Of a DNA stretch of 42,759 bases, positions 11,594 through 42,759 are shown one piece after another. Under the pieces are notes generated by a model that had not been told where the DNA came from, did not search any database, and saw only the letters and a program-made list of their open reading frames with translations. Within the stretch, counting starts at the first letter, position 1. Every line of letters begins with the position of its first letter. A program made the position numbers and the translations under genes. Source of the DNA: an uncultured Deferribacteres bacterium. Its GTDB lineage: Bacteria; Zhuqueibacterota; JdFR-76; DREG01. The stretch is from the NCBI GenBank assembly GCA_913009825.1, contig CAJVYQ010000042.1, forward strand, positions 1 to 42,759, read 5' to 3'.

Positions 11594-11602
11594 AAAATTA
11601 TT

Positions 11603-11707: not shown

Positions 11708-11753
11708 GTAAAAATCACATATTTTACTGAGAACATGATAAAATATTTTTACG

Positions 11754-12959: not shown

Positions 12960-12972
12960 ATATCATATCTCC

Positions 12973-16949: not shown

Positions 16950-17054
16950 TGATGTTCCCTTCCTATGCGAATCATATTGTATAAATTTAATCATTTCAAC
17001 GCGCAAAGACGTCTGACTCTTAAAAGCTCACCCACGGGTGAAAACTTCATAGGG

Positions 17055-17151
17055 TGTCATTCCCGAATGCTTTTATCGGGAATCTAATTATGCAATAACA
17101 TGGATTCCCTGCCTGCAGCAGGCAGGCCGCTAAATACATGCGGGAATGACA
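17055..17151. repeat. REP-like element with a nested CCTGCC palindrome
   Basis: Outer arms TGTCATTCCCG (17055-17065) and CGGGAATGACA (17141-17151) are perfect complements, with inner CGGGAATC and GGATTCCC words. Within the right half lies a perfect palindrome CCTGCCTGC-A-GCAGGCAGG at 17108-17126, followed by CCGCTAAATACATG, interrupting what would otherwise be GGATTCCCGC. This looks like one small element inserted into another. It lies between the upstream TolC gene and the adaptor gene. Confidence 0.75.
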
Positions 17152-17187
17152 GAAATACATACCCATCAATGAGTCTTTCTCTAACTC

Positions 17188-18435
17188 TTACAATTTGCCG
17201 ATCAAATTTTCGATTTGCGCTTCAATTAAATAAAGCCTGAGAATGACCCGTTCCCGGGATACTTTCGCAGCAATCAATGCTTTTTGCGCCAGCAATACTT
17301 CCGTATTAGTAGCGATACCGGCCTGATAGTTCAATTCGGTATAGTCATAAGTTTTTTGCGCCTGCTGCATTGTTTCTTCTTTTAATGATACGAGTTTTCT
17401 AAAATGCTTCAGCCGGGAGACAAGCTGCTGCACATTTGTGCGGAGTTCAATAAAGAAGGCTTGTTTCGTCGCTTCCAGTGATTCGGACGCTAATTGAAAC
17501 GTCTGCGCCTTGTTTTTTCGTATCCCCCAATCGAGAATCGGCAACGACAGTCCGCCGGAAATTGTCGCATAATCCCCTCCGGATGTGGGATCATTATCCA
17601 GAATATATCCGCCGCTGACAAAAAGTTTGGGCAAACGACTGTTTCTCACCAATTTTTTTTGCAGATCGATTATTTTTATTTGCTGGTCCATGATGGAAAT
17701 TGCCGGGTTGTGGCGCAACGCGACGGAAAGAAGTGTGTCGGTAGAAAAATTTTGACTACTAGAAAGCCCGTCCAAAATCAAAGAATCGCCTGACGAAATT
17801 GTCAAGCCGGTGAGGTTTGCAAGCTGAATTTGCCAGGCATCGATTTCAGAGTTTGCCGCCAAAATCTTTTCGCGGGCAGCGGCTAATCCGGATTGGGTGA
17901 AATACAAATCCAGCCGGTCAATTTGACCCAGTTTGAATAGTTTTTGCGTCACTCCTAAATGATGGGAAAGATAAATTTCAGAGAGCCGGACAATGTTCAT
18001 TTCCTGCCGCGCAGAGACAAGATTAAAGTAAGCCTGCTTCACCCGGTAAAGCAACTTTAGTTTGTTTTGCCGGGCCTGAAGTTTGGCGATATACTCGGCT
18101 GTAATTCCTAATTTTTTAAGCTTGCTCAGCCATTTTCCCATGTCCCAGACAAGATTCAACCGGTTGGCCAAAGTATTGTATCGATAATCGCTGAAATGAT
18201 AATCGGCGCCCTGAAGGGCAAGATCAACTCCGGGATAAGCCTGTGCCTGAAGACTTTTGGCCGCTACAGCTTTACTTTCCTGCAATTTTTGAAAAGCCTG
18301 AACCGAAGGATGATTTTCCTGTGCGGCCATAATGCAGGATTTAAGTGATAATATTTTTGTGGTTTGTGCCGGTAAAGGTAAAATAAGAGCCACATTGAAT
18401 ATTAAAATAAAAGAAAATTTGAAAGACTTGTTCAA
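17188..18435 (-). CDS. TolC-family outer-membrane efflux protein, second copy
   Basis: 415-residue outer-membrane factor. A signal peptide ends near residue 23 (LPLPAQ), followed by the TolC pattern CIMAAQENHPSVQAFQKLQESK, a second repeat VALRHNPAISIMDQQIKIID and a late helix YQAGIATNTEVLLAQKALIAAK. The start is TTG at 18435 with AGGAG seven bases upstream. It lies upstream of the adaptor at 15996-16949 but is separated from it by about 240 bp containing a repeat, so it may be a separate transcript. With the other TolC, two RND pumps and two adaptors, the region could encode two complete tripartite exporters. Confidence 0.87.
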   Translation of the reverse strand: MNKSFKFSFILIFNVALILPLPAQTTKILSLKSCIMAAQENHPSVQAFQKLQESKAVAAKSLQAQAYPGVDLALQGADYHFSDYRYNTLANRLNLVWDMGKWLSKLKKLGITAEYIAKLQARQNKLKLLYRVKQAYFNLVSARQEMNIVRLSEIYLSHHLGVTQKLFKLGQIDRLDLYFTQSGLAAAREKILAANSEIDAWQIQLANLTGLTISSGDSLILDGLSSSQNFSTDTLLSVALRHNPAISIMDQQIKIIDLQKKLVRNSRLPKLFVSGGYILDNDPTSGGDYATISGGLSLPILDWGIRKNKAQTFQLASESLEATKQAFFIELRTNVQQLVSRLKHFRKLVSLKEETMQQAQKTYDYTELNYQAGIATNTEVLLAQKALIAAKVSRERVILRLYLIEAQIENLIGKL

Positions 18436-18605: not shown

Positions 18606-20759
18606 TCACCATCGATACAAATAATCCGCTTTGGCGACAAACACTTGATTTTCCGATAGCAACTGTCGATTTCCGGTTCCCCACAAATGATTGTAAACCA
18701 GGTAAAAATGGCTGCCCAGGCCGGGTATCCAATGCAGGCGAAAATTCAAATTCAATTCATGATCTTCGTTATTCCATTGAATAAAAGCGCGTGTATCCAG
18801 CCGGGTCGAGAACGCATAACCGATACGGCTGCCCCATTCCCTGGTCTGAAAAGAGCCGTCAGGCAAGCCGATATCATTATACCGAAAGTCGAGACCGGCA
18901 GATAAATGAGATGACAACTTCATTAAATTCTCCATGGCGAAAACGGTTCGTTTGCCGTTATAAAACTCACCCCAGTTCACAAAGAACCCGCCCGAGAGCA
19001 TTCGCCGCCGATTGGTCTCGAATTGAATTTCCGTATGATTGAACCAATAGTCGCCGGTGGGTATCACATAGTTGTCGTAAATATTAAAATTCTCATCCAG
19101 CCGTTCGAACGTCCGTTGCAGATTGAACTCAAAAAATTCCCCGCTTTGCGTCGTAAAGCCCAGGGGACGCCCCTCGTAGTCAATCGATTCTATACGACCG
19201 GAGATGTCGGTTGTATAATCCATATCTAGCGGTTTAAAAACCAGCTTGCGGATGCCCAGGATTCCGGGCCGCGGCGTATATCGAAAGGCGCCGCCGGTTT
19301 GGCGAATGTTTTTTCGGCGAACAAAGCCGACTTCCGGGTTAAAATTATCCTGCGTTTCAAAGGAATAAAAATAAGAATCGAAAAGGTCGTTTGGATAGTC
19401 GACGGATATTCGCCAGGTAATGTTATCGCCTTTCAGCCCGGGTGTTTGGGTGCCGGCGATGTAACCGTCGATAGCCAGGTTCTTATCGCCTAAAAAATGC
19501 GTGAAATACAAATTCAGGTCCGCTCCGAAGGCTCGATTTACATATCCCGTGCCGGGAACTAATTTTTGCGTGGCAATGAATCCAACTTTGGACTGCTGAA
19601 GAAAGTCCCGCTGGAAACGGGTGACCAAAAAGTTGGCTCCGGGCGTGTCGCCCTTGCTGTCCGTCTGCACATCCAGGACACCGATGGAATATTTCCCGGC
19701 CCGGCCGGTGAGGCGCGCTCCGCTGAGGATCGGTACTTGCTCCCCATCCTCCGACAAACCTATGCGCCGGCTGTAAAAAACCTGACCGGAATGAAATGAA
19801 CCGAAACGAAATATATCGGCGCCTTCGAGAAAGAACTCACGTTTTTCCGGATAGTAGAGATCGAAGCGGGTGAGGTTAATGCGCTCCTGGTCCGCCTCCA
19901 CCTGGGCAAAATCGGTATTGACCGTAAAATCGGCTGTCAATGTAGGTGTAACGCCATATTTTAAATTAAAACCGGTTTTCGTTATCGTGTCTTGCGATGG
20001 ATTGTCCGAGTCCTGTTTTTGCATGCCGAATTTGGCGTAAGGAAAAAGTTCGATCTGATGTCCGCGCTGAAGATCGACCAGTCCATGCAGCTCACCGGCA
20101 GACGCAAGATAGGCAATACCTTCGTTATAAGTGTAACCGGACCAGAGGTCTTCCTCGTTCTTCCTCTGGATGATGCGCTGGAAATTGATCCCCCACACTT
20201 GTTCTTTTCTGTTCCGAAAACGCAGCGTCTTGAAAGGAATGAGAATTTCAGCCTGCCACCCTTCAGGCGTGATTCTCGCCCGTACATCCCACACACCGTT
20301 CCAATTTTCATTTGGATCACGTTCGGGTGCAAACTGGAAAGCATCGAAACGAGCGCCGTTGGGGTTGACGGTAAAGACAAAGCCGGTGCGATGATCCAGG
20401 TAGGTATCGATGACAATGGTCACCTGATCATCCCCTTCCTGATTGCTGTCTCGTACCAAAGTATTGGCGATAATTTTATCCGGCTGCGAATCGAAGCACA
20501 AAACACCGATATAAAGATTCTCCCGGTCATAGATAATTCGAACTTCGGTGCGTTCTGTGGCCGGTTTGCCATTGTCCGGTTCGCGCTGCATAAAATGCGT
20601 TGCGGGGTCTGCCAATCGCCAGTCCTGCTCGTTCAGATAGCCGTCAAATTTAATCGCAGAACGAATACGCCGTGCTGTAATGACCGGTCTGTCATCCAAC
20701 GCAAAAACCTGTTGGGAAATCAACAGGCAAAAGATTAAAAAAATCATTCTGTTTTTCAT
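18606..20759 (-). CDS. DUF5916/CBM9-like outer-membrane protein
   Basis: 717-residue secreted protein with signal peptide (residues 1-21, ending VFALDD). Residues about 25-230 form a CBM9-like beta-sandwich (IKFDGYLNEQDWRLADPATHF, VWDVRARITPEGWQAEILIPF). The rest is the DUF5916 region, with the conserved YPEKREFFLEGADIFRFG and many alternating aromatic strands that end in an aromatic residue (YLYRW), as expected of an outer-membrane beta-barrel. No biochemical role is established for DUF5916; carbohydrate or surface-polymer handling has been suggested by the sandwich domain only. A paralog lies at 24398-26560. Confidence 0.85.
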   Translation of the reverse strand: MKNRMIFLIFCLLISQQVFALDDRPVITARRIRSAIKFDGYLNEQDWRLADPATHFMQREPDNGKPATERTEVRIIYDRENLYIGVLCFDSQPDKIIANTLVRDSNQEGDDQVTIVIDTYLDHRTGFVFTVNPNGARFDAFQFAPERDPNENWNGVWDVRARITPEGWQAEILIPFKTLRFRNRKEQVWGINFQRIIQRKNEEDLWSGYTYNEGIAYLASAGELHGLVDLQRGHQIELFPYAKFGMQKQDSDNPSQDTITKTGFNLKYGVTPTLTADFTVNTDFAQVEADQERINLTRFDLYYPEKREFFLEGADIFRFGSFHSGQVFYSRRIGLSEDGEQVPILSGARLTGRAGKYSIGVLDVQTDSKGDTPGANFLVTRFQRDFLQQSKVGFIATQKLVPGTGYVNRAFGADLNLYFTHFLGDKNLAIDGYIAGTQTPGLKGDNITWRISVDYPNDLFDSYFYSFETQDNFNPEVGFVRRKNIRQTGGAFRYTPRPGILGIRKLVFKPLDMDYTTDISGRIESIDYEGRPLGFTTQSGEFFEFNLQRTFERLDENFNIYDNYVIPTGDYWFNHTEIQFETNRRRMLSGGFFVNWGEFYNGKRTVFAMENLMKLSSHLSAGLDFRYNDIGLPDGSFQTREWGSRIGYAFSTRLDTRAFIQWNNEDHELNLNFRLHWIPGLGSHFYLVYNHLWGTGNRQLLSENQVFVAKADYLYRW

Positions 20760-24397: not shown

Positions 24398-26560
24398 TTA
24401 TAACGTAAACCGCCAAATCAACTTTGAAAGAATTGTAGTATTCTCCAGTTTGAATCCGCCGTCACCGGTATCATAGAGCTGATTAACGGCCAAATAAAAA
24501 TCGCTGCCGATGACCGGGATCCAGTTGACGCGAAAATTGAACAAAATTTTATCATCTTCGTTATTCCATTGACCGAAGAAAGAGCTGTACAATTTTGTCG
24601 TAAAGGCATATTCCGCACGGCCACCGATTTCGTGCGTGGCAAAATCGCCCTGTGGAAAGCGGAGCCGATTGTAACTGTAATCGGTGCGCAGATTAAAATG
24701 CTTGTTGACTTTCACTTTTGCCTGAATTTCTAATTCGGTGCGTCTGCCTGTGTAATAATCACCCCAACTGGTTCCCACATCAAAAGAAAGTTTTCTCCCG
24801 CTGTACGTACTCGCCTGAATTTCATTCCGATTGTACCAATAACCGCCGGTTGGCAAAATCACACCATCATGAATTTCGAAATCTTCATCCAGCCGGTCGT
24901 AAAACCGTTGTATATTATATTCGAACCTTTCGCCGCTTTTGGTGCCGAAGCCAAACGGCCGCCATTCCCAGCCGACGCTTTCCAATTCATTTGTATCATC
25001 ACTAAAATAGGCGTCCACATCGATCGGCTTCACTTCCATTTGCCGTACCCAGGGCAGAAAAGACGGCCGGGGATTGAATTGGAGTTCGGTGTAAAGCAGC
25101 TTATAATTTTTACGACGCAAAAACCCCATTTGCGGATCAAAATCCTTGCCCACCCGGGCGAACACAAAATCATACTCAACTTTGTCGTTATGACTGGTTA
25201 GATAGGTCTGGTAGGCAATGTCGCCGCTTTTTTCATCATTCTTTGTGGAAGAGCGGGTGATGGCGCCGCCGACAGAAAGATTTTTATCGCCAAAAAGATG
25301 GGAGGTTACATAATTTGCATCCACGCCGTAAACATAGTTGCTTACATCGGCGGAATTTTTGGCAGTCATAATTATACCGATATTGGACTGTCCTCCTATA
25401 TCCTGTTTGAGACGCAGCACCGAATAATTAGTGGTTGGTTCATCGCCCTCCGCCTGCGTCTGGATAGACAGGGCGCCAATGTTGGTTGAGCCGGTCTTAC
25501 CGATCAGACGTCCGCCGCCGATGATAGGGATCTGTCCGCCCTGTTTAATTCCGATTCTTCGGGTATAAAAAATGGACGGCAGTCCCTTTCTGGCACCAAA
25601 ACTGAAGGCATCCCGGCCTTCCAGGAAGAAACCTCTCTTTTCCGGATAGCGGATGGAAAAACGGGTCAGATTAATAATCGCCCGGTCGGATTCAACCTGA
25701 GCAAAATCAGTGTGTGTGGTCACATTCAATTTTAAATTGGAAGTAACCAGATAATTCAGATCGCCGCCGGCGCGAAAGATACCTTCTCCGGATTGCTGCC
25801 ATTGCTTTCTCAAACCGGCAGTTAGATAAGGCATCAATTCAACAAGATGACCGCTGGAAATATTTTTAAGTCCCAGCAGTGTACCCGCGTGTGAAACCTG
25901 TTCCAGATGATAGTTTCGGCTCCAGCCTTGCCACAAAACTTGCTCATGTTTGCGGCTGATGTTGCGTTCAAAATTGATGCCCCACACTTGCTCGGGTGTA
26001 TTGGGAAACTTCAGTGTGGAAAAAGGGATTTCCATTTCGGCAAACCAACCTGCCGGAGTAATTTTTGCCCGCACATCCCATACGCCGTTCCAGTCATCAT
26101 TTCTGCCTCGTCCTTCATCGGTGACCAACTCATCACGCCGTGCCCCGTTTGGATTGATAACAAAATGATACGAATTGCGTCGAGCGTGATAAGTATCGAT
26201 CACGATTTCCATGTTGTCTTCCCCCCTGCTGTAAAAGTCGCGTTTCATCTCTTTTGCAACAATTTTGTCAGGCTCACTGTCGTAACACCAGAATCCCAAA
26301 TACAGGGATTTGCCGGTGAAAACCACAGCCACTTCCGTTTTTTCCGAAGCCGGCTCTCCCTCGTTCAATTCACGCTGCGTAAAATTGGCTATCTTTTCTG
26401 CCTGCTGCCAGCAAAGTTCATCCAGCCTGCCGTCCAATTTGATTTTTTCATGTGTCCGCAATGCATGCAGTACGCTCGGTTCGGAAACCTGGGCAATGGA
26501 CTGTCCGGAAATAAAGAATACAAGTGAAATCATTCCGATGAAAAAAGAATGCCGCCTCAT
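24398..26560 (-). CDS. DUF5916/CBM9-like outer-membrane protein, paralog
   Basis: 720-residue secreted protein; the signal peptide ends SGQSIAQV near residue 24. The order of parts matches the protein at 18606-20759: CBM9-like sandwich (IKLDGRLDELCWQQAEKIANF; VWDVRAKITPAGWFAEMEIPF), then DUF5916 with YPEKRGFFLEGRDAFSFGAR and a C-terminal aromatic barrel ending IWRFTL. The two share much of their length but have clearly diverged, so the duplication is old. AGGA lies five bases upstream of the ATG. The role is unknown; surface location is inferred from signal and barrel. Confidence 0.85.
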   Translation of the reverse strand: MRRHSFFIGMISLVFFISGQSIAQVSEPSVLHALRTHEKIKLDGRLDELCWQQAEKIANFTQRELNEGEPASEKTEVAVVFTGKSLYLGFWCYDSEPDKIVAKEMKRDFYSRGEDNMEIVIDTYHARRNSYHFVINPNGARRDELVTDEGRGRNDDWNGVWDVRAKITPAGWFAEMEIPFSTLKFPNTPEQVWGINFERNISRKHEQVLWQGWSRNYHLEQVSHAGTLLGLKNISSGHLVELMPYLTAGLRKQWQQSGEGIFRAGGDLNYLVTSNLKLNVTTHTDFAQVESDRAIINLTRFSIRYPEKRGFFLEGRDAFSFGARKGLPSIFYTRRIGIKQGGQIPIIGGGRLIGKTGSTNIGALSIQTQAEGDEPTTNYSVLRLKQDIGGQSNIGIIMTAKNSADVSNYVYGVDANYVTSHLFGDKNLSVGGAITRSSTKNDEKSGDIAYQTYLTSHNDKVEYDFVFARVGKDFDPQMGFLRRKNYKLLYTELQFNPRPSFLPWVRQMEVKPIDVDAYFSDDTNELESVGWEWRPFGFGTKSGERFEYNIQRFYDRLDEDFEIHDGVILPTGGYWYNRNEIQASTYSGRKLSFDVGTSWGDYYTGRRTELEIQAKVKVNKHFNLRTDYSYNRLRFPQGDFATHEIGGRAEYAFTTKLYSSFFGQWNNEDDKILFNFRVNWIPVIGSDFYLAVNQLYDTGDGGFKLENTTILSKLIWRFTL

Positions 26561-27628: not shown

Positions 27629-28858
27629 TCATACCACTAATTTTCTCAAATTAATCTTTTTCAGATCATTGGTGCCAAGACCTTTTTGAGCACACGCTGC
27701 AATGTGTGTGGAGATGTTTTTAATCGATGTAAAACCCTGTTCCCGCCTTTTCTTGTCCAGAATGTCAAGTCCGATTCTGTCCATGGCCACCGGATCTTTA
27801 CTGAAGAACAGGCGGTTGTCAAAGGCCAATTGCGCGCCCAGAACACTTTTGGTTGAAATTTTTGCCGCTTCGCCGATATGCAACACCATTTTGTCTTTGA
27901 TACAGGAAAAATTGAGAATTTCGGAAATGGCCCGGGCACAATAATCTAAATGAAACCGGACTTTGTTGGTTGTAACGCCCAGAGCGATGTTTTTTGCTGC
28001 CCAGGTTAATCCACTGTCTTCATTATGCTTCAGAACGGCAATATTGATGAGTTTAGTAATATCCTTCGTCACAATTTCTGAAAAGAAAGACTTTTCTTCA
28101 TCTGCGATCGTTACATCATTAAACTGACCGGCGACTTCTTCTGCAATCCGCCTAATCCCTTCAGTGTCACTGTAATCCATGTATAACCTGCGAATTTCCT
28201 TGCTGTATTTTTGCGCTTTTGGGTTACCCTGCTTGATCAGCATCCACAGCCAGGCGACTGAATTGAATATCTCCCGGTGCGTTCCGTTAGCGGTAAAATT
28301 ATGTTTCATCAATTCGCGAAACCGCTTCAGCGTGCCGTATTCCAGAGAAAGATACACCTCCCGGTCGTAACCTTTCGCCCACGGCACAATGGAAGCGGAT
28401 TGATCCGATGTGCCCCGAACTCTTACTCCCGTTTTACTTTTGTTTATTTTCAGGCCGGTTTTTCGGAAAACCTGATCACGATGATCCCAAATGATAATAT
28501 TATTTTCTTTCACGCCGGCGCTCTTCAGACCTGCGGCGGCTTCCCGGATTGAAGCCAAAGATGAGGAAATTTTTGGCGCTCCCAGACAATTTATTTTGAT
28601 GCCCACAACATCATCGGGAGAAAACATGGACGACCAGGCATTCCGCAGACTGCTTTCACCGGTTACTTCCTGCAATCCCGCGGAAAAAGCGCGATGAACA
28701 GCTTTGGGATTGTAGCGTTTATTGATCAGCATGTCTGTTGCCGCAACGGAAACAACCACACTTTTTGAATTTGTATTCGCCATCAATGGATGATGAAGCA
28801 GCGCTGCCCCGCTCATCGTCACAGCCGACTTTTTAATGAATTCTCTTCTCGTTGTCAT
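27629..28858 (-). CDS. Tat-exported DUF362 protein
   Basis: 409-residue protein beginning with a twin-arginine signal (TTRREFIKKSAVTMSGAALL), so it should be folded before export, which usually means a cofactor. The DUF362 region runs from about residue 75 (DDVVGIKINCLGAPKISSSL) to the end (LAFDNRLFFSKDPVAMDRIG). DUF362 proteins are often paired with ferredoxin domains, but no CxxCxxC cluster is present here. It stands alone between two repeat-rich gaps. AAAGGA precedes the ATG. The function is unknown. Confidence 0.8.
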   Translation of the reverse strand: MTTRREFIKKSAVTMSGAALLHHPLMANTNSKSVVVSVAATDMLINKRYNPKAVHRAFSAGLQEVTGESSLRNAWSSMFSPDDVVGIKINCLGAPKISSSLASIREAAAGLKSAGVKENNIIIWDHRDQVFRKTGLKINKSKTGVRVRGTSDQSASIVPWAKGYDREVYLSLEYGTLKRFRELMKHNFTANGTHREIFNSVAWLWMLIKQGNPKAQKYSKEIRRLYMDYSDTEGIRRIAEEVAGQFNDVTIADEEKSFFSEIVTKDITKLINIAVLKHNEDSGLTWAAKNIALGVTTNKVRFHLDYCARAISEILNFSCIKDKMVLHIGEAAKISTKSVLGAQLAFDNRLFFSKDPVAMDRIGLDILDKKRREQGFTSIKNISTHIAACAQKGLGTNDLKKINLRKLVV

Positions 28859-29187: not shown

Positions 29188-30351
29188 TCAGTTAAAATAC
29201 AAACTACCCTTTTTCGCTTCGTTCGGATTATGGAAATAGTGTCCGACGCCGTTTTTTACCAAATCAGCATAATGAGGTGCATTGCTAACCAGGATTGCAC
29301 GGTCCGGGTTTTTCATGGAGTACTGGTGCATAATTTCCAATACGACCGAGCAATGCTGACCGACCCGTTTTTCCATGGGCCAACCGGATTTATCATAAGG
29401 GACAAATAGTTTCTTCTGCTTAGAAAGGCTCAAAATGAAAGGATCTTTTCCTTTAAGCAGAAGATCCACTGTTTTGGGACCGGTCGGCTGATCCAAAAAC
29501 GGTGTGGGCGCTTCCAGTAAAAACGGCAGGGTGTCTGAATAATCGCCAATTTCCCGGTGCGAAAGTCCGCGAAACCCCTTTGGCGAAGGTTCTACATGAT
29601 TCTCAAATCCTTCCATTGCCGTCACCGTCATGGATGCGATGGTAGCGATGCGCATGGATTTATCCGGCGCAACGATACAATTGGTTACCGGAAACATGGT
29701 TTCCGCCCCGTGAATATCGATGGCCAGATCCACATGCTCTTCCCTCAGCAACTGCATGGCGGCATACGTCACTTTTTCCATCAATGGCCCATCGGAGCGC
29801 CCCGGCCAGGTACGGTTGGTATTCCTCACATCCAGATAAGAAAGGAGCTGGCGCTCCGGATAATGAACATAAACATCGGGATCCGGCCACTGATCCAGCG
29901 GTGAGGCGTTCCGGTTGCCCATGCGGAATTTTTTACTACCCCACCCGGTCGGCACATCAAAGAAAAGCGGATAGCCGTCACCCGGTTTGGTATTCCGGCT
30001 GCCGCTGTTGTTAAATTGAGGAATAATAATCACCGTACCCTTTTCCACCCGGGCATTTTCTATCATAACGAGGGCGGAAAGGATTGCAACGGGTTCATTG
30101 GAATGGGTGTTGGCAATGATCAATATTTTGCCGCCTTCTTCTTTCCCCTGGAGGAAAAACACATGGGTGTCTGCCATGGTGCCTTTCAAGCCTGCGCAAT
30201 AGTCGCTCAATTTTACAACTTTTGTCACACCCGGCCCGGCTACAATGGGCAGTTGATAATGCCGGTGTTGGTAAAATTGTATTCCCGACCAGGTGGTGAG
30301 TACGGCAAAAATAATAACCGAAACTGTTTTTATCATGGAATTCCGAGACAT
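29188..30351 (-). CDS. M14-type succinylglutamate desuccinylase/aspartoacylase-like hydrolase
   Basis: 387-residue zinc hydrolase with an N-terminal membrane anchor or signal (residues 7-24, VSVIIFAVLTTWSGIQF). Zinc ligands are visible as H83 and E86 in NTHSNEP and H214 in DIHGAE. NNSGSRNTKPGDGYPLF and RNTNRTWPG fit the AstE/AspA branch, which removes an acyl group from an N-acyl amino acid. The N-terminal segment implies periplasmic action. It lies 15 bp after the small membrane protein gene, in a run with the DctM-like permease and C69 dipeptidase, so it probably trims peptides or acyl-amino acids brought in or made by that locus. GGAGAGA precedes the ATG. Confidence 0.82.
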   Translation of the reverse strand: MSRNSMIKTVSVIIFAVLTTWSGIQFYQHRHYQLPIVAGPGVTKVVKLSDYCAGLKGTMADTHVFFLQGKEEGGKILIIANTHSNEPVAILSALVMIENARVEKGTVIIIPQFNNSGSRNTKPGDGYPLFFDVPTGWGSKKFRMGNRNASPLDQWPDPDVYVHYPERQLLSYLDVRNTNRTWPGRSDGPLMEKVTYAAMQLLREEHVDLAIDIHGAETMFPVTNCIVAPDKSMRIATIASMTVTAMEGFENHVEPSPKGFRGLSHREIGDYSDTLPFLLEAPTPFLDQPTGPKTVDLLLKGKDPFILSLSKQKKLFVPYDKSGWPMEKRVGQHCSVVLEIMHQYSMKNPDRAILVSNAPHYADLVKNGVGHYFHNPNEAKKGSLYFN

Positions 30352-30366
30352 GTCTCTCTCCGTTTT

Positions 30367-30522
30367 TTATCGTATGTGAAATATTCTTAATACAAGCGGC
30401 ACCAGCACAATCAGATAAAGCAGCATCTGCTGCATATCTTTTTTCTCGCGCACAAAATTCCAGATAAGCATACCGGCTATGTACGCGCTGATGAAATAAT
30501 AGATGATCATGACAATGAACAT
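30367..30522 (-). CDS. 51-residue membrane protein
   Basis: A small frame runs from ATG 30522 to TAA 30367 with GGAGAG six bases upstream. It encodes two hydrophobic segments, MFIVMIIYYFISAYIAGMLI and LLYLIVLVPLVLRIF, joined by a charged turn (REKKDMQQ). It sits between the permease (55 bp upstream) and the M14 hydrolase (15 bp downstream). The position suggests an accessory subunit of the permease, much shorter than a DctQ subunit. No known family is recognised. Confidence 0.7.
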   Translation of the reverse strand: MFIVMIIYYFISAYIAGMLIWNFVREKKDMQQMLLYLIVLVPLVLRIFHIR

Positions 30523-30576
30523 AATAATCTCTCCGTATATTTAGATAGTTCAAATTTAAATGCGCTTTAAATCATT

Positions 30577-31890
30577 TCACATACTCCATCGCACCAGAAA
30601 AGCCAGTTTGGCGCTGAAGATGATCATCAGGATTCCCACAATTGTGATAACAATCCAGGGTATCCAGGTCGCTTTTAAGAAAGACCAGTACGAACCTTTG
30701 TAATCGGCCATCATAACGCTGAGCCGGCCAATGAGCGCCGTTGGCGGCAATCCGTCGCCCAGCGGCCACAGAAGACTCAAACCGGCAATGACAACCGTGG
30801 CGTGGAGTCCGATAGAGTCCAGCATCCAAACCAGCGGAATGCCGATGATGGCTGCGCCGCCGTAAGTCAGAATTCCTTCCGAAAACGGAATGATGATGAT
30901 CAGGAGGAAATACAACAAAATCAACGGCATGCTGATCACTGCATAAGAAATCATTCCCCGTACGCCGGTGGCGGTCATGATTTGTTGCAGCGAGCCCACA
31001 ACAGCCATGGTAGCCAGCAGCGGTAGCAGCAATTTCACCGTATCCCGGGATAGAATCAAAATATTTATTTTTTTCGGACTAACCAGCAGGGCGATAATAC
31101 CGGCAATGGTAAATTCCAGCGGTAAACCCAAAATCGGAAAAGAAAACGGCCGGATTCTGGCAACGATGATAAGACCGAAAAAAACCAAAAAAGGCAGAAG
31201 AACGCGCCACCAGGTCATTTTATCCGGCACTTCCGGCATCTCTTTCAATATCTCTTCAAGTTCCTTCTTCTCTTCTCTCTTCCAGCCTAATACCAGCATG
31301 GAAAATGTGCCGAGAACAATAACGGGAATACCCAGCGGTAATTCAAAACCTACATAAGGAATGGCGGTGCCGGCGGACACAATCATAGCCCAGATATTAA
31401 CCGGCGGCGCTGCGGCGCTTAAACCGGCAATAATAAAAAGAATGGCGGTTACCTTTTTCTTTGATATGCCAAGATATCCCAATGCCAGCGCGCTTGGCGC
31501 CCCTACCGTCAAAATGGAGACGCTTCCCGCTCCGGTTAACGCGCCGGGAATAAGAATCACAACCATCAGAAGCAGTAAGGCGATGATCCTTTTTCTATAA
31601 AATGCTTTGATGATTCCCCGCACTACATAATTCACGCCGCCGGATTCGGCGACAATGGCAATGAAGATAGTAGCTGTGGTAAAGACCAGAATAACATCCA
31701 GATAAGTAAACGTGCCTTCGATGAGGTGTCTGGCCAGTGCACCGATCGGAGGTGTCTTTATAAAAGCTCCCGCAAGTCCGCCGGCAACAGCAGAAGCAAG
31801 CATGCAAAGCTCGACCGAAAGCTTTTTCCAACCAGCCCAGGCGTAGGCCAGAATCATTATCGCTAAGATGATTCCAATGTGAAGTACCAT
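30577..31890 (-). CDS. TRAP DctM-like large permease
   Basis: 437-residue integral membrane protein with about 12 helices. Ion-transporter superfamily landmarks are IPGALTGAGSVSILTVGAPS in the first half, APPVNIWAMIVSAGTAIPYVG after it, and PFSEGILTYGGAAIIGIPLVW and LWPLGDGLPPTALIGRLS in the second inverted half. This is closest to the large permease of TRAP transporters. No DctQ or DctP gene is adjacent; a 51-residue protein follows and a DUF6305 secreted protein precedes. The cargo is probably a carboxylate, peptide or N-acyl amino acid. That is inference from the flanking hydrolases. Confidence 0.82.
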   Translation of the reverse strand: MVLHIGIILAIMILAYAWAGWKKLSVELCMLASAVAGGLAGAFIKTPPIGALARHLIEGTFTYLDVILVFTTATIFIAIVAESGGVNYVVRGIIKAFYRKRIIALLLLMVVILIPGALTGAGSVSILTVGAPSALALGYLGISKKKVTAILFIIAGLSAAAPPVNIWAMIVSAGTAIPYVGFELPLGIPVIVLGTFSMLVLGWKREEKKELEEILKEMPEVPDKMTWWRVLLPFLVFFGLIIVARIRPFSFPILGLPLEFTIAGIIALLVSPKKINILILSRDTVKLLLPLLATMAVVGSLQQIMTATGVRGMISYAVISMPLILLYFLLIIIIPFSEGILTYGGAAIIGIPLVWMLDSIGLHATVVIAGLSLLWPLGDGLPPTALIGRLSVMMADYKGSYWSFLKATWIPWIVITIVGILMIIFSAKLAFLVRWSM

Positions 31891-31941
31891 TTCACCTTCT
31901 TTTTTTTGTCTGTATGTATTTGCTTGTCACTAAACTCTATA

Positions 31942-32017
31942 AACCGTGAATTTCGCGAATTTAAATTGACTTAACTTACTAAAAATCAATTGGCGTTAAT
32001 TGGCTAAATTCGCGGTT
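31942..32017. repeat. inverted-repeat element in the DUF6305-permease gap
   Basis: AACCGTGAATTT (31942-31953) is matched by AAATTCGCGGTT (32006-32017) with one mismatch, and inner AATTTAAATTGAC and CAATTGGCGTTAATT words extend the symmetry. It occupies most of the 152-bp spacer. It could be a mobile palindrome or an attenuating stem ahead of the permease. Confidence 0.55.
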
Positions 32018-32042
32018 CGATCCTTTTAGGCCGGATTCATAC

Positions 32043-32708
32043 TTATTTGAACAGATCTCCCATCAATTTTACAATTCCCAGCGCATATTTCACTTCGGAT
32101 AACGGAACGTCCTTTTCTTTGGCAATTTTGGTAAACCTGCCGTCTTTGTTGCTGTCTTTTACGGCAATGATGTAATCGGCGTACGGTGCAATGGCATCGA
32201 TCATTTTTTCGTTGTCGCTTCCTGCCGCGCCTCTTTTCGATTCACCGCCGGCATGGACGGCAACAATGAAAATTTTATTTTTCTTACAATAATTAACAAG
32301 ACTCTTCAACCTTTTCAGTTCATCATTTATTGTCAGGCCGGATGCACCCATTCCTTTTAAGCTGGCGCCAACGGCAAAAATAACGGTTTTGTAGGGAGTG
32401 CCTTTCTTAAATTTGGTCAGATCCGTGTGAATCTCAACATGGAAACCTTCCCCGGATTTTTTACCACCCAGTCCCACGCCGCTTTTCAGCATATCCACGG
32501 TCGGCACATCGCAATAATCATAGCCGATCTGCGCCTGCTCCATGATCACATTCAACGTGTTCACATCCGCGCTTTGGCCGGCCGAAGTGGTCAGAACCGG
32601 TAGTTGGGCTTTGGCAGTCTGATCTTGTGCGGCGCTTACATCTGTCAACGAGGCAAACAAAGCAATCGTCAAGACAAATGTTGCACAAAGTTGCCCTAAT
32701 TTTCTCAT
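32043..32708 (-). CDS. DUF6305-like secreted protein
   Basis: 221-residue protein with a signal peptide ending near VSAAQD (residue 27). The mature part opens LPVLTTSAGQSADVNTLNVI and has TVIFAVGASLKGMGASGLT, FIVAVHAGGESKRGAAGSDNE and YADYIIAVKDSNKDGRFT, a pattern I associate with DUF6305. Start 32708 is favoured by AAGGAGG placed nine bases before the ATG and by the signal peptide. The longer frame to 32780 would nearly touch the previous gene. It follows the C69 dipeptidase by 77 bp and precedes the permease. A substrate-binding role for the permease is possible but unproven. Confidence 0.75.
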   Translation of the reverse strand: MRKLGQLCATFVLTIALFASLTDVSAAQDQTAKAQLPVLTTSAGQSADVNTLNVIMEQAQIGYDYCDVPTVDMLKSGVGLGGKKSGEGFHVEIHTDLTKFKKGTPYKTVIFAVGASLKGMGASGLTINDELKRLKSLVNYCKKNKIFIVAVHAGGESKRGAAGSDNEKMIDAIAPYADYIIAVKDSNKDGRFTKIAKEKDVPLSEVKYALGIVKLMGDLFK

Positions 32709-32784
32709 TTTTTTTATCCTCCTTTTGTAACAAAAATGAAGAACGGGAAGCCCGCAATTGGTATTTCCCGTTCTTTTCAATCTA

Positions 32785-34542
32785 TTACTTTTTTTCCTGA
32801 ACCGGTTTCAAATTGTTGTATTTAACCAACTCTTCCAGCCACCATTGGGGATATTCCAGCGCTTTGCGTTTTCTGGTTTTCACCTCATATTCCCAGAGAT
32901 GATTGTATTTCACCAGCAGAAAATCACCCAGTTTCCACCAGGCATCCAAAACCAGATTGGCATTGTTGTTACAATAATCCGTAAGATAATCTCTTGCCAG
33001 TTCCGGTGATTTTTTATATAGTTTCATAGCATGCGCGTCAATTTCCGGCGTGCGTTTAATGGCGCCTCCCTCCCATTTTTCCTGGGCTTTTCGCACATCC
33101 TTTATGGCATGAGAATAAACTACCTGGGTATGAAAATCGACATAATCGAAAGCCCATCTGGCCGATTTGCGGTCGAATTCCCAATGATCACCGAATTCAA
33201 AGGATTTTGGTATCTTACGCACACCCTCGTAAAACGGCATAAAACAATCGGTATCCTGAGCGCCTAGTCCGATCCAGACAATTCCACCGACGGGATTGGG
33301 CAGCCAGTCTCTGCATTGGGTTACGGTGATGTATTCGGCCCGGTTCACTCCGATGCATCTCGGCGTGTTGTATCGCTTGCCATTCAATTTGAACCCGTAT
33401 GGCAAATGGTTGGGATTTTTAAACGGGCCGCCCTGGATCCCTTTGGCCGCATCTATTTCCGTTCCATCATAATGATCTCTTAAAATGTGAATCACGTCGC
33501 TCACGGAAAGTTTCTTTTCCGGTTTGATCGAAAACGGGAAATCCATGTTGGGAGTATCGATGAGGAATTTCTTCGAGGGCGCCACCAGATCGTAAAAACG
33601 CCACATTCTTCCTCTCGAACCGTTGGAACTTTTCGCGCTTACTTCATTGGGAGAATATGCTCTTTTCCAGCTGAACGGTTTGCCGCTTTTGGCATCGTAA
33701 TAGCCATGTTCCATGGCATAAGATTTAACATTGGGCGAAGCCATAAAGTAGTCTTTATTGCTCAAGTCGATTTCACCGATCCTGGATTCATTGGCGCAAA
33801 TACTAACCTCGTCATCGGGCACACGTTGTGCGCACCAGATAGCGCCGGGTTGACCGGTTTCCGGAGTCCAAAGCGGACCCACCGGCATGATTTCAAACAG
33901 CCAGATTTCGTTGGGATCGGAAATGGCCAGCATCTCTCCGGAATCCGTATTGCCGTAGCCGTATTTTTCGGCCAGAGACCCAATAATTCTGATGGCATCT
34001 CTCGCTGTTTTTCCCCGTTCCATAGCAATGAGCGTAAGTGTGGTGATATCAAATTTTGGCGTTGGCGTGTGGTTGTTCATTTCACGCCGGCACCCGATAG
34101 TGGATTCACCAATCGCGACCTGGTTATCATTCATGTAACCAAACATGCCGTGCAGATAGCCAAAAGTATGTTTGATTTGCGGTATTTCCAGCCCGCTATA
34201 TTTATCCTCCAGCGTATCCCATCTCAGCCCTTTGGCGGGCGGTTTGGTAATAAATTGAGGGATGTAATAGATCCGCCGCATGGCGCCTTCCTCGTGGTCT
34301 GCGGCAGGAACAGAACGCCAGGTCCAGTCACAAACGCCGCAATCGCAAGTATGCGTGGACATCACCGACCCGTCCGTCGATGCTTTCTTGCCAATCAGGA
34401 GAACCGTGCAGGCATCGGATTGATAATCTGTTGAATCTGTGCCGCAAATGTTACAGGTTTGGGAATGCAGCGGTGAAAGGTTCATAAAACTGAAAACACC
34501 CCACAACAAGGTAACCATGAAGATAATCCGTTTTGTTCTCAT
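32785..34542 (-). CDS. C69-family (U34) dipeptidase
   Basis: 585-residue Ntn-type peptidase of the C69/U34 dipeptidase family. The signal peptide ends near residue 27 (SPLHSQ). Residues 28-44 form a Cys-bearing propeptide-like segment, and the catalytic Cys is expected at residue 45 in SDACTVLLIGKKASTDGSV. Further family marks are NDNQVAIGESTIGCRRE, MLAISDPNEIWLFEI, TPRCIGVNRAEY and WIGLGAQDTDCFMPFY. It should hydrolyse dipeptides outside the cytoplasm. It is first in a run with the DUF6305 protein, DctM-like permease and M14 hydrolase. GAGGAGG lies upstream of the ATG. Confidence 0.88.
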   Translation of the reverse strand: MRTKRIIFMVTLLWGVFSFMNLSPLHSQTCNICGTDSTDYQSDACTVLLIGKKASTDGSVMSTHTCDCGVCDWTWRSVPAADHEEGAMRRIYYIPQFITKPPAKGLRWDTLEDKYSGLEIPQIKHTFGYLHGMFGYMNDNQVAIGESTIGCRREMNNHTPTPKFDITTLTLIAMERGKTARDAIRIIGSLAEKYGYGNTDSGEMLAISDPNEIWLFEIMPVGPLWTPETGQPGAIWCAQRVPDDEVSICANESRIGEIDLSNKDYFMASPNVKSYAMEHGYYDAKSGKPFSWKRAYSPNEVSAKSSNGSRGRMWRFYDLVAPSKKFLIDTPNMDFPFSIKPEKKLSVSDVIHILRDHYDGTEIDAAKGIQGGPFKNPNHLPYGFKLNGKRYNTPRCIGVNRAEYITVTQCRDWLPNPVGGIVWIGLGAQDTDCFMPFYEGVRKIPKSFEFGDHWEFDRKSARWAFDYVDFHTQVVYSHAIKDVRKAQEKWEGGAIKRTPEIDAHAMKLYKKSPELARDYLTDYCNNNANLVLDAWWKLGDFLLVKYNHLWEYEVKTRKRKALEYPQWWLEELVKYNNLKPVQEKK

Positions 34543-35464: not shown

Positions 35465-36169
35465 TTAAATATGTTCGTCGTTCAGTTCAACTTTTACCTT
35501 TTTTCTCAATGTTACCCGGAATAGTTTACGGGGCAGCCCGCCTTCTTCAAATTTATCGATTGCAATAATCTCGTAACCTGTGGCCAGATGTTTTACTTTT
35601 TCTTCATCAAAAAAATGCACGATATAGCCGCCCGTTTCGTACATGTCCTCGCCACGATGGATGCCCTGTCGAAAGTGGGCATCTCCCTTGTGGCGAACAG
35701 TATAAACATTCAGCCCGCCCGGTTTCAGCATGCGGCGGACCTGGGCCGACAGGAATTCCAGTTCCGATGTGCTCAGCGCCATGCAATAAAGCATGTGCGA
35801 ATAGCAGTCGTCAAAGGTTTCGTCGGCAAAAGGAAACCTCTGCCGCACATCGTGGCACATCGGGTGAACTAGATCGACGAGGCCGTTCTTTTCAGCTTTT
35901 TCGGAAATGGCAAGGACGCCGCTCTCGCAATAGTCCAGCACCGTTACCTCGAATCCGCTGCGGGCGAAGAACAGCGTGTCGCGTCCCTGGCCGCCGCCCA
36001 GTTCCAGGATATTTTTCACCCCGTTATTTTTAAAAATTTCGACCGCCTTTCGCGCCGGTTCGCTGGCATCAGCGCCAAACATATCTTTTCTTTTCGTGAA
36101 AGATTTTTCCCACTGTTTAGTCTGTTCGTTTAATACCTTAATATCAAGTAAAGATTTTTCTTTTTCCAT
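35465..36169 (-). CDS. SAM-dependent methyltransferase, cassette copy 2
   Basis: 234-residue class I methyltransferase. Motif I is NILELGGGQGRDTLFFA (about residues 53-69), followed by acidic motif FEVTVLDYCESG, then PFADETFDDCYSHMLYCMAL, LKPGGLNVYTVRHKGDAHFR and the C-terminal block EEGGLPRKLFRVTL. Cys residues in LDYC, PMCHD and DCYSHMLYC are shared with copy 1. TehB- or thiopurine-type enzymes that methylate metalloid or thiol compounds have this general fold and size, so a metal, metalloid or thiol acceptor is a reasonable guess given MerTP upstream. The ATG follows directly on the SHOCT stop codon. Confidence 0.88.
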   Translation of the reverse strand: MEKEKSLLDIKVLNEQTKQWEKSFTKRKDMFGADASEPARKAVEIFKNNGVKNILELGGGQGRDTLFFARSGFEVTVLDYCESGVLAISEKAEKNGLVDLVHPMCHDVRQRFPFADETFDDCYSHMLYCMALSTSELEFLSAQVRRMLKPGGLNVYTVRHKGDAHFRQGIHRGEDMYETGGYIVHFFDEEKVKHLATGYEIIAIDKFEEGGLPRKLFRVTLRKKVKVELNDEHI

Positions 36170-36415
36170 TTATTGCAAATCCCCTTTCATCTGTTCAAAT
36201 TCTTCCTTGTTAATTTCTCCCTTGGCATACCTTTGTTTTAAAATATCCAAAGCTTTGTCGGAAGAATCCTCTCTGTGATAATGGCTATTATTGTAATGCC
36301 AAGGCGGTGCTATTCTATCTCTTCCAAAAATTAAGTAAATAACTACAAGCATAACAATTAACATTATTATCGGGAATATCCACATTCCGCCTCCCCCAAA
36401 ATATTCAGGACCCAT
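36170..36415 (-). CDS. SHOCT-domain membrane protein, cassette copy 2 (shortened)
   Basis: 81-residue protein with one transmembrane helix (WIFPIIMLIVMLVVIYLIFG) and a C-terminal SHOCT motif (ALDILKQRYAKGEINKEEFE), a short helical module found at protein ends. Start 36415 is chosen because AGGAG lies eight bases upstream; an ATG at 36433 overlaps that site. Compared with copy 1 it lacks about 45 N-terminal residues, including the first helix and both cysteines. Confidence 0.8.
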   Translation of the reverse strand: MGPEYFGGGGMWIFPIIMLIVMLVVIYLIFGRDRIAPPWHYNNSHYHREDSSDKALDILKQRYAKGEINKEEFEQMKGDLQ

Positions 36416-36511
36416 ACTGTTAACTCCTTTCATTATTTATTTTTTCGCAACGAATAACCCAATTTTTCAATATCGTTTTATTCACAATAAAAAATATTTT
36501 CTAAATTTACT

Positions 36512-36781
36512 TTATTTTTCAGCCTCTGTATCCGATTTGAGCTGTCCTTCAAATATAGACATCATTGTGGTAATCATCTCTCTTGCCAGATTCTGTTTTG
36601 CATCTGAATCTAATTCGGAAAAAATCATATTTAAACATTTAGGCATCATGGCGCCGACGAAAGCCATTCGATCATCTGCGGACATTTGACCTAACATTTT
36701 TTCCATCATTGTGTCCATCATTTGCGGCATATCTTCGGGCTTCATCATTCCCGACATCATTTTTTCCATCATTTTGTTCAT
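36512..36781 (-). CDS. Met-rich small protein, cassette copy 2
   Basis: 89-residue protein with 21 methionines, most in the first 52 residues, where pairs recur every three to four positions (MMEKMMSGMMKPEDMPQMM). One conserved Cys lies in MMPKCLNMIF at residue 49. No signal peptide or transmembrane helix is seen; the rest is charged and helical. Met pairs of this kind are known soft-metal ligands in other proteins, so binding of Cu(I), Ag(I) or Hg(II) is a fair hypothesis. The ATG overlaps the stop of methyltransferase copy 1 (ATGA). I recognise no named family. Confidence 0.8.
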   Translation of the reverse strand: MNKMMEKMMSGMMKPEDMPQMMDTMMEKMLGQMSADDRMAFVGAMMPKCLNMIFSELDSDAKQNLAREMITTMMSIFEGQLKSDTEAEK

Positions 36782-37464
36782 TGCGTATTTCTTTTCTTTT
36801 TTAAAGTTACTATAAATAATTTTCGGGACAACCCGCCTTCTTCAAATTTATCGATTGCAACAATCTCATCACCCTGAGCCAAGTGCCGCACTTTATCTTC
36901 ATCAAAAAAATGCACGATATAACCGCCCATTTCGTACATGTCCTCGCCACGATGGATGCCCTGTTGGAAATGGGCGTCTCCTTTATGGCGAACAGTGTAA
37001 ACATTCAGTCCGCCCGGTTTCAGCACGCGGCGGACCTGCGCCGACAGGAATTCCAGTTCCGATGTTGTCAGCGCCATGCAGTAAAGCATGTGCGAATAGC
37101 AGGCGTCGAATGTTTCGTCGGCAAAAGGAAACCTCTCCCGCACATCGTGACACATTGGGTGAATCAAATCGGCCAGTCTGCTTTTTTCGGCCTTTTCAGA
37201 AATAGCAAGTACGCCGCTGTGGCAATAGTCCAGCACTGTTACCTCGAATCCGCTGCGGGCGAAGAACAATGTGTCGCAGCCCTGGCCGCCGCCCAGTTCC
37301 AAAATATTCTTTAGGCCGTTCTTTTTAAAAAGTTCAGCAGCTTTCTGTGCGGCTTGGCTGGCATCGACGCCGAACATGTCGGAGCGCCTTGAGAAAGATT
37401 TTTCCCAATGATGCGTCTGTTCGTTCAATACTTTATGATCAAGTGAAGATATTCTTGTTTTCAT
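36778..37464 (-). CDS. SAM-dependent methyltransferase, cassette copy 1
   Basis: 228-residue class I methyltransferase, the closer-to-promoter copy. Motif I is NILELGGGQGCDTLFFA, with an extra Cys where copy 2 has Arg. It is followed by FEVTVLDYCHSG, PMCHDVRERFPFADETFD, ACYSHMLYCMALTTSE and KPGGLNVYTVRHKGDAHF. It is collinear and mostly identical with copy 2, so the duplication is recent. The ATG abuts the SHOCT stop (TAAATG) and its own stop overlaps the next Met-rich start. The substrate is unknown. Confidence 0.88.
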   Translation of the reverse strand: MKTRISSLDHKVLNEQTHHWEKSFSRRSDMFGVDASQAAQKAAELFKKNGLKNILELGGGQGCDTLFFARSGFEVTVLDYCHSGVLAISEKAEKSRLADLIHPMCHDVRERFPFADETFDACYSHMLYCMALTTSELEFLSAQVRRVLKPGGLNVYTVRHKGDAHFQQGIHRGEDMYEMGGYIVHFFDEDKVRHLAQGDEIVAIDKFEEGGLSRKLFIVTLKKKRNTQ

Positions 37465-37836
37465 TTATTGTAAATCCCTTTTCATCTGTTCAAATTCTTC
37501 TCTGGAAACTTCTCCTCTTGCATAGCGTTTTCTGAGAATATCCAGGGCGTTATCTGATTCACGGCCGGAGTACGGAGGTTGACCGGAGTCCTGCCACGGC
37601 GGGCGAAGATTTCCCCCGCCAAAAATCAGATAAATAAAAGCCAACATGGCTACAAGCATAATTACGGGAAAAATAAACATACCGCCTCCAAAAAAGTAAT
37701 CCGGACACGCGAAACTGCCGCAAAAAGAAAATGGGCTGTTCGCGTAATGCCCCGGCATAAATACAGGGCCCACGACGCTGATACCAATTAAAATCACCAA
37801 TACCATTAATACGATCCACAAAATTGATTTCTTCAT
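37465..37836 (-). CDS. SHOCT-domain membrane protein, cassette copy 1
   Basis: 123-residue protein with two transmembrane helices (about residues 5-25, ILWIVLMVLVILIGISVVGP, and 52-72, FIFPVIMLVAMLAFIYLIF). A short outside loop carries Cys residues in FSFCGSFACPDYF, and a C-terminal SHOCT module has ALDILRKRYARGEVSREEFE. The loop cysteines facing the periplasm could bind metal. It lies 7 bp after the Met-rich gene. No function is known for SHOCT proteins of this layout. Confidence 0.85.
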   Translation of the reverse strand: MKKSILWIVLMVLVILIGISVVGPVFMPGHYANSPFSFCGSFACPDYFFGGGMFIFPVIMLVAMLAFIYLIFGGGNLRPPWQDSGQPPYSGRESDNALDILRKRYARGEVSREEFEQMKRDLQ

Positions 37837-37843
37837 ACTCGCC

Positions 37844-38098
37844 TCACTTTTCTCCCGCCAGATTTGAGAAAATGCCCATCATTTTTTCCATCATTTCCCG
37901 GGCAAGCTTTTCTTTGGATTCGGAATCCAATTCGGAAAAAATCATATTTAAACATTTCGGCATCATGGCGCCGACGAAAGCCATCCGGTCTTCTGCCGAC
38001 ATTTGACCGAACATTTTTTCCATCATCGTGTCCATCATTTGCGGCATATCTTCGGGCTTCATCATTCCCGACATCATTTTTTCCATTAATTTGTTCAT
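37844..38098 (-). CDS. Met-rich small protein, cassette copy 1
   Basis: 84-residue Met-rich protein nearly identical to copy 2 over the first 59 residues (differences at positions 4, 30 and 36), then diverging (KEKLAREMMEKMMGIFSNLA). It has the same single Cys in MMPKCLNM. It starts 18 bp after the MerTP stop. No signal peptide is seen, so it is expected in the cytoplasm. It could be a cytoplasmic metal buffer receiving ions from MerTP, which is inference from position and composition. Confidence 0.8.
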   Translation of the reverse strand: MNKLMEKMMSGMMKPEDMPQMMDTMMEKMFGQMSAEDRMAFVGAMMPKCLNMIFSELDSESKEKLAREMMEKMMGIFSNLAGEK

Positions 38099-38116
38099 TT
38101 TAAAATCTCCATTGTT

Positions 38117-41730: not shown

Positions 41731-42759
41731 TCGTGGTATATTTTGAATTCTTTTCTTTCGATGTGAGAGATAGGCCTTGTGGTTTTTTATCTGAACCCAC
41801 ATTACTAAAGATATAGCTTCATTAATATCGTAAATTTTCAATGGTAAAATAACCTCCAGCAAAATTCTAAGCTGCGACAGAGTAATAGACGGAGCTTTTT
41901 TTCCCCAACCTGATTTTAAGGTGCCAAAGGAAAAAATGAGATAACATACAAGTTAAAATATGATGATTCCAGCCCGTATATTTCCGAACCTCATATTGAT
42001 CCATACCTAACTCACTTTTTGTCTCTTCAAAACATTGCTCTATTGCCCATCTAAGACCACTTAACCAGACAAAGGTTTTAAGTTTTGTATCTTCAGGAGC
42101 ATTGCTTATGAAATATTTATATGTAGGGTTGCATCCTATTGTTCGTTTGATGATAAGCCAAACCGTTTTTTCAGGCAGGCCATTTCTTGCCAGAACAACA
42201 CGTTTTATTGCAAATTCATACTCAATGGGCCCTTTTGTTCCTTCTGATACTTTGCGCCGGTACCAGAAGTAATTGTTAATATTCATAGCCAGTGTTTCGA
42301 AAGATATGGGTTTCTTTTCTCCTTTTTCAAGGATAACTCTGGTACGCCTCTCGCTTTTATAGTTGTATTCCTTTTCCATTGTTTTGGGTCTTTCCAACCA
42401 ACACAACGTATCTGACGGAATGCTGACAAAATAATGTAGTTCCGAATGTTCTTCTATAGCGTCAATAAACTCCGGGCTGTTTCCATAAAGAGAGTCAGCC
42501 AAAATATATTTATATGGTAATATTTTTCGTTCTTGCAGTTCATGAAACATTTCAATGGCCAACTGGGGTTTTGTCTTAAATTCAACATCTTCGGGAATTT
42601 TACATTTTTCCCTTCTTATCGCGTATTCGTCAGTAAACCATTTCTCAGGAATAAATAACCGTTTATCCAATAAAGCATAGCCCGAAGGAGAAGCATAAGC
42701 AGCAAATACACCAACCTGGCAATTTTCTACCTTGCCCAAATTGCCACAATACTGTTTAG
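41709..42759 (-). mobile_element. IS701-family insertion sequence, running off the window
   Basis: From about 41709, where the ATPase similarity stops, to the window end the sequence is accounted for by an IS701-type transposase and about 150 bp of left-end non-coding DNA. The exact end is unresolved. TTAGTGTAATCG near 41722 resembles the tips of the MITEs at 2 and 22831. The right end and any target duplication are outside the window. Confidence 0.6.
41867..42759 (-). CDS. IS701-family transposase, 5-prime partial
   Basis: The frame stays open to the window edge and reads KQYCGNLGKVENCQVGVFAA, the conserved block that in IS701 transposases includes the first catalytic region. A second block is YKYILADSLYGNSPEF (the family's A-D-x-x-Y-G). 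WLSGLRWAIEQCFEETKSEL (the final catalytic Glu) and GWNHHILTCMLSHFFLWHL follow. The full enzyme is about 400 residues, so roughly the first 100 are missing here. No internal stop is seen, so this copy may be functional. Confidence 0.85.
   Translation of the reverse strand, partial: KQYCGNLGKVENCQVGVFAAYASPSGYALLDKRLFIPEKWFTDEYAIRREKCKIPEDVEFKTKPQLAIEMFHELQERKILPYKYILADSLYGNSPEFIDAIEEHSELHYFVSIPSDTLCWLERPKTMEKEYNYKSERRTRVILEKGEKKPISFETLAMNINNYFWYRRKVSEGTKGPIEYEFAIKRVVLARNGLPEKTVWLIIKRTIGCNPTYKYFISNAPEDTKLKTFVWLSGLRWAIEQCFEETKSELGMDQYEVRKYTGWNHHILTCMLSHFFLWHLKIRLGKKSSVYYSVAA

Follow-up and report, generated by a model that had tools for sequence, protein, structure and literature searches.

A run of five minus-strand genes in an uncultured Deferribacteres bacterium (positions 29188-34542 of contig CAJVYQ010000042.1, assembly GCA_913009825.1) raises the question of what is moved by a permease that resembles the large subunit of TRAP transporters, and with which partners. 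The whole stretch of 42,759 nt, called the window below, is contig C42 of a genome of 5.1 Mb that is 96% complete (G000). An initial annotation proposed a distinct type of transporter for peptides or N-acyl amino acids. The comparison presented here points to another substrate: the run probably represents the half responsible for turnover and transport in a PgsA-less system for poly-gamma-glutamate, a bacterial polymer akin to nylon, or for a close gamma-linked glutamyl polymer. The synthesis half would be PgsB-PgsC-PgsW, encoded elsewhere in the genome. That the five genes belong to a poly-gamma-glutamate system at all is considered very likely. All five were found as open reading frames (ORFs) on the minus strand where the annotation had placed them, with the hydrolases it had described at both ends of the run, both of them secreted:

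32785-34542, minus strand: C69-family N-terminal nucleophile (Ntn) hydrolase, 585 aa, with a signal peptide (PF03577, 6e-65)
32043-32708, minus strand: DUF6305 protein, 221 aa, with a signal peptide (PF19823, 2e-43)
30577-31890, minus strand: predicted elevator-superfamily permease, 437 aa, assigned from a fold model, the PF06808 matches of its relatives and the permease tree
30367-30522, minus strand: two-helix membrane protein, 51 aa, with homologues of 47-54 aa at the equivalent place
29188-30351, minus strand: membrane-anchored M14 zinc hydrolase, AstE/aspartoacylase-like, 387 aa (PF24827, at the cut-off)

In this order the genes are separated by 76, 152, 54 and 15 bp. A GC-rich hairpin with a putative role in transcription stop lies between the C69 and DUF6305 genes, and a GGAGAG-type ribosome-binding site precedes both the small gene and the M14 gene. 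The likely start of the DUF6305 gene is the ATG at 32708, located behind the ribosome-binding site AAAGGAGG, which gives a protein of 221 aa rather than the 245-aa ORF beginning with TTG. No Rfam or tRNA features were detected within the window. The run is not a chance assembly, because the permease, the small protein and the M14 hydrolase keep this order in all stretches where the three occur together; stretch L182 is truncated by a contig end.

The substrate is suggested by the neighbours of related cassettes. A plasmid of Cetobacterium somerae (NZ_CP143320) carries an unbroken run encoding a gamma-glutamyltransferase (GGT), DUF6305, a ‘TRAP large permease’, a 47-residue protein, a ‘succinylglutamate desuccinylase’, PgsB, PgsC and PgsW (TIGR04332, of the poly-gamma-glutamate system). 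DUF6305 and pgsB/pgsC lie within 20 kb of each other in 17 stretches, one of them fusobacterial, seven from the window’s phylum and nine from a second phylum; pgsW is present as well in all but one. If the permease is denoted P, the small protein t, the M14 hydrolase M, DUF6305 D and the pgs genes B, C and W, at least six arrangements can be distinguished: GGT-D-P-t-M-B-C-W; B-C-W-C69-D-P-t-M; C69-B-C-W-D-P-t-M, with C69 once or twice; P-t-M-D-GGT-B-C-W; B-C-C69-D-P-t-M-W; and D-P-t-M facing W-C-B. Linkage that is kept despite repeated rearrangement argues for a shared function. Most of the linked PgsB and PgsC copies tested exceed the NCBIfam equivalog cut-offs; for PgsB, the scores of the linked copies are 244-298 bits (cut-off 222.7), with the exception of locus L070. 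Conserved linkage, on which the idea of a distinct system depended, was found across at least three phyla.

The distribution of the genes among genomes agrees with their positions. Among 82 genomes of the window’s phylum, DUF6305 was found in 14, PgsW in 14 and both in 13. The exceptions are G059, where pgsB and pgsC stand beside C69 and DUF6305 genes on a short contig, and G058, where the PgsW match reaches the contig end. In the second phylum, which holds an Aminicenantes metagenome-assembled genome (MAG, G086), DUF6305 exceeded the cut-off in 25 of 297 genomes and PgsW in 24, with both present in 23. The one-sided Fisher p values of 4e-13 (82 genomes) and 6e-31 (297 genomes) are inflated by shared ancestry and are not strict probabilities. 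PgsW was also present in 27 of 32 further cassette-bearing MAGs, which were found via the permease. Since the cassette tracks PgsB, PgsC and PgsW in both presence and position, and since GGT replaces the C69 ‘dipeptidase’ throughout one branch of loci, the peptides or N-acyl amino acids first proposed as the substrate are not favoured.

C69 enzymes and GGT are both Ntn hydrolases. The window C69 protein matches PF03577 with 220 bits and reaches 191.3 bits with the NCBIfam equivalog C69_fam_dipept, below its cut-off of 250; the pgs-linked C69 copy of L069 reaches 195.7 bits against the same cut-off. The nucleophile is Cys45, and the Cys-Thr start of the mature chain aligns with the solved dipeptidase 5iau/5imh. 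Most Aminicenantes-type loci have between one and three C69 genes.

The M14 protein carries a membrane anchor at its N-terminus and scores 25.2 bits with PF24827 against a cut-off of 25. The HxxE, RNxNRxxPG and DxH motifs and a later Glu are invariant in this protein and 18 diverse relatives (His83, Glu86, His214 and Glu280). Its nearest solved relatives are AstE/DoeB-type deacylases (2qj8 and 6twm, the latter being DoeB), with a weak match to 4wcm, which we take to be a secreted cell-shape carboxypeptidase (M99) that cleaves a gamma-D-glutamyl bond of peptidoglycan; weak matches to Pfam M99 were seen in the comparisons too. The HxxE...DxH zinc motif and the NR...PG motif are shared with the AstE, aspartoacylase and DoeB deacylases, but the window-type enzyme differs from them in being membrane-anchored, outer-face, pgs-linked and barely at the Pfam cut-off. 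Known members of the family remove acyl groups from amino acids. As N-succinyl-glutamate is chemically similar to gamma-glutamyl-glutamate, gamma-glutamyl dimers would be a reasonable substrate. In two GGT-type loci, L063 (11009-11863) and L066 (13506-14333), a second, shorter AstE/M99-like M14 gene encoding 276-285 aa was observed near the GGT gene.

Neither Pfam nor NCBIfam yields a match for the window permease at E<=1, and the protein is not among the PF06808 (DctM) matches of its own genome; no useful match came from PDB searches with its sequence and its profile. Its GGT-linked relatives match PF06808 above the cut-off, with 34.6-46.9 bits. The structural model of the permease (pLDDT 74.7, pTM 0.74, the detail therefore being unsure) gave whole-length matches, with 390-404 residues aligned across the set, to ArsB (10tp_A, Z 22.4, root-mean-square deviation 4.4, 392 aligned), NaS1 (Z 21.5), SiaQM (7qha, Z 20.3, root-mean-square deviation 5.0, 398 aligned) and VcINDY (Z 17.6). 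By its modelled fold, the permease is an elevator-type carrier of the TRAP-M/DASS/ArsB ion-transporter superfamily, and these fold relatives are mostly carriers of small anions or dicarboxylates. The earlier designation ‘DctM-like’ consequently holds for the fold and for the PF06808 matches of relatives but not for the sequence of the window copy.

The observation that the permease has no DctP or DctQ neighbour was correct. The genome encodes exactly two each of DctM, DctP and DctQ, forming two complete TRAP operons on contigs C84 and C18, so that no orphan partners that might pair with the permease from elsewhere remain. Its constant companions are instead DUF6305 and the tiny two-helix protein, which supports the proposal of a distinct transporter cassette. 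The 51-residue protein comprises two hydrophobic helices; all its Pfam and NCBIfam matches are below the cut-offs. Its homologues are located between the permease and M14 genes and have a conserved C-terminal P-L/F-x-LR-x-x-x-K/R motif. In L067 the small ORF was missed by BLAST, yet it is present by translation (...VLRILQIK).

The model of DUF6305 shows one Rossmann-like alpha/beta domain after the signal peptide (pLDDT 87). The fold search returned Rossmann-like proteins alone, with Z of 8.9 or less, weak matches to which no interpretation is given, and the sequence search revealed no solved relative. A relation to PgsW was not detectable (hhalign probability 0.9%), and no mention of DUF6305 was found in the literature searched. 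Lys, Arg, His and Gln residues are invariant across the branches and, taken as a cationic site, would suit an anionic ligand. Perhaps DUF6305 is a secreted accessory protein that binds or handles the ligand.

The maximum-likelihood tree of the permeases contains three branches, namely a GGT-linked branch, branch A with the genome’s own second copy on contig C2 and many pgs-linked copies, and branch B with the window copy. Within B, the window permease groups with those of G063, G074, G076, G015 and G016 (support 100/100), apart from Aminicenantes. The cassettes of G063, G074 and G076 lie in one run with pgsBCW; the linked stretches with a window-type permease are L068, L069 and L071. The other members of B come from Aminicenantes-type genomes, lie away from pgs genes and are frequently accompanied by two or three C69 genes. 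The window set thus belongs to a pgs-linked lineage without being linked itself, so that a shift of substrate is conceivable. A separate observation concerns the Aminicenantes-type pgs loci L167 (8810-11775), L165, L166, L168, L170, L174 and L175, in which about 1.5-3 kb lie between the DUF6305 and permease genes; in L167 this gap holds an opposite-strand peptidase-like ORF and a 190-aa protein.

The window genome possesses pgsB-pgsC-pgsW near the end of contig C66. Both of its synthesis proteins pass the NCBIfam equivalog cut-offs, PgsB with 255.1 bits against 222.7 and PgsC with 106.2 against 96.45. A second cassette on C2 encodes DUF6305, a permease 51% identical to that of the window, the small protein and the M14 hydrolase. 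PgsA/CapA (PF09587) remains below the cut-off in this genome, the best score being 21.4 bits against 27, and none was found in G074 and G076; where PgsA is found, it is on contigs other than that of pgsBCW, and the window genome has PgsW instead.

From these data, the following sequence of events can be proposed. The chain would be made from glutamate by PgsB and PgsC and would then leave the cytoplasm, with PgsW, a membrane-anchored outer-face protein, presumably in place of the bacillar PgsA. Outside the inner membrane, a secreted Ntn hydrolase (C69 here, GGT in other lineages) may cut the chain or transfer its ends, and the membrane-anchored M14 hydrolase may free glutamate from short gamma-glutamyl pieces. 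The permease and its small two-helix partner would move glutamate or short oligomers over the inner membrane, most likely inward; retrieval is slightly favoured as the role of the permease, rather than export. The chances seem about even that the cassette constitutes a dedicated poly-gamma-glutamate transporter, composed of a new elevator-superfamily branch, a subunit of about 50 residues with two helices and the secreted DUF6305, by which diderms move the polymer or its fragments over the inner membrane and re-use what was exported, one branch having swapped GGT for C69.

Parts of this proposal have known counterparts. In bacilli, PgsBCA(E) makes the polymer, and the cleavage enzymes CapD, of the GGT type, and PgdS are encoded beside the pgs/cap genes; Fusobacterium nucleatum was reported to make polyglutamate and to be without pgdS (PMC3815933). 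Polyglutamate is also hydrolysed by PghP, a zinc-dependent enzyme of carboxypeptidase A relationship (PMC4497714). The bacillar PgsBCA(E)/CapBCA operons and the cassette systems have in common the PgsB/PgsC equivalogs and, both within the operon, a secreted GGT-type cleavage enzyme and a tiny membrane-associated protein, whereas the cassette systems have PgsW for PgsA, an added elevator permease, DUF6305 and M14 hydrolase and, in one branch, C69 for GGT. The fusobacterial system unites GGT, DUF6305, the permease, the 47-residue protein and M14 with PgsBCW in one run; the window set differs from it by having C69 rather than GGT, a permease that is 34% identical and a location separate from pgsBCW. 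No report linking pgs genes with TRAP-like permeases or describing this gene combination was found in the literature, in which subscription papers were partly covered.

It is possible, though unlikely, that the same system works in the opposite direction, with the permease, the small protein and DUF6305 exporting the polymer or setting its length in place of PgsA/PgsE and the hydrolases trimming or anchoring the chain. The state of PgsA in the genomes described above and the nearly constant company of permease and pgs genes are consistent with this; ArsB, one of the best fold matches, is an exporter, and bacilli have small proteins, PgsE among them, that stimulate synthesis (PMC3815933). On the other hand, bacilli secrete the polymer with no such permease, the position of PgsA is already filled by PgsW, most carriers of similar fold take up small anions, and two hydrolases beside the permease suggest that small pieces are released and taken up. 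Another explanation concerns the parts and is compatible with poly-gamma-glutamate turnover, namely that the cassette is a TRAP transporter with diverged partners, in which DUF6305 would bind the substrate and the 51-residue protein would be a reduced small subunit. The permease does share the large-permease fold with the TRAP transporters DctPQM and SiaPQM, matching the M domain of SiaQM, some of its relatives pass PF06808, and the gene positions resemble those of dctPQM. Nevertheless, this is rather improbable: DUF6305 does not match DctP (PF03480), nor does the 51-residue protein match DctQ (PF04290), DctQ has about 160 residues and four helices, and ArsB and NaS1 match the permease fold no less well than TRAP does.

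Several findings weigh against assigning the window run to poly-gamma-glutamate. The run is unlinked to pgsBCW in its own genome, where the C2 cassette could be the partner of PgsBCW instead. All 32 Aminicenantes-type loci are unlinked to pgs genes within about 8 kb or within the contig, and their cassette could serve another peptide substrate. PgsW was not found in five of the 32 carrier MAGs, which may be incomplete; the linked PgsB of L070 scores 208 bits, under the cut-off of 222.7; and C69 enzymes are known for acting on dipeptides, not on gamma-glutamyl bonds. On the alternative reading, the window branch would take up dipeptides or N-acyl amino acids released by the secreted C69 and M14 enzymes, the link with pgs being ancestral only. 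The absence of pgs linkage in the window and in the Aminicenantes-type loci, which have as many as three C69 copies, the second cassette and the deacylation of N-acyl amino acids by M14 relatives all speak for this, but it appears quite improbable, given that the permeases most closely related to that of the window (G063, G074, G076) stand in one run with pgsBCW, that pgsBCW is still present in genomes where only the window cassette type was found, and that DUF6305 occurs without PgsW in almost no genome. The assignment to poly-gamma-glutamate turnover is preferred. It suggests a polyglutamate turnover system common to fusobacteria and to uncultured members of other phyla, and it offers a testable role, via poly-gamma-glutamate made without PgsA, for DUF6305, the permease branch, the family of membrane proteins of about 50 residues and the M14 branch. 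The export, trimming and recovery of the polymer in diderms are poorly understood, and in Cetobacterium, which can be cultured, a single run holds all the genes.

Other features of the window are of a different nature. Just downstream of the cassette lies a gene for a Tat-signal DUF362 protein (27629-28858), which was tried as a sixth member of the run and dropped, as there is no copy near other cassettes. Another Tat-signal DUF362 protein, 26% identical to it, is encoded about 3 kb from the genome’s own pgsBCW on C66 (L039, 5009-6220). A tandem duplication, whose unit measures about 1.3 kb and whose DNA copies are 86-88% identical, occupies 35465-38099; the unit encodes a methyltransferase, a SHOCT-domain membrane protein and a Met-rich protein of 84-89 aa. 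The methyltransferase is related to NCBIfam MduS (NF045649), below the cut-off, and reading TGA as selenocysteine gives no sensible extension of it, so the tandem copies look like selenium-free relatives. Two large outer-membrane-type proteins encoded near each other (18606-20759 and 24398-26560) are apparent paralogues, the second matching CBM9 and DUF5916. According to the ORF reading, two consecutive RND efflux sets, each with a pump, a membrane fusion protein and a TolC-like protein, are located at 6633-18435, and a transposase-like ORF (41867-42739) lies at the contig end.

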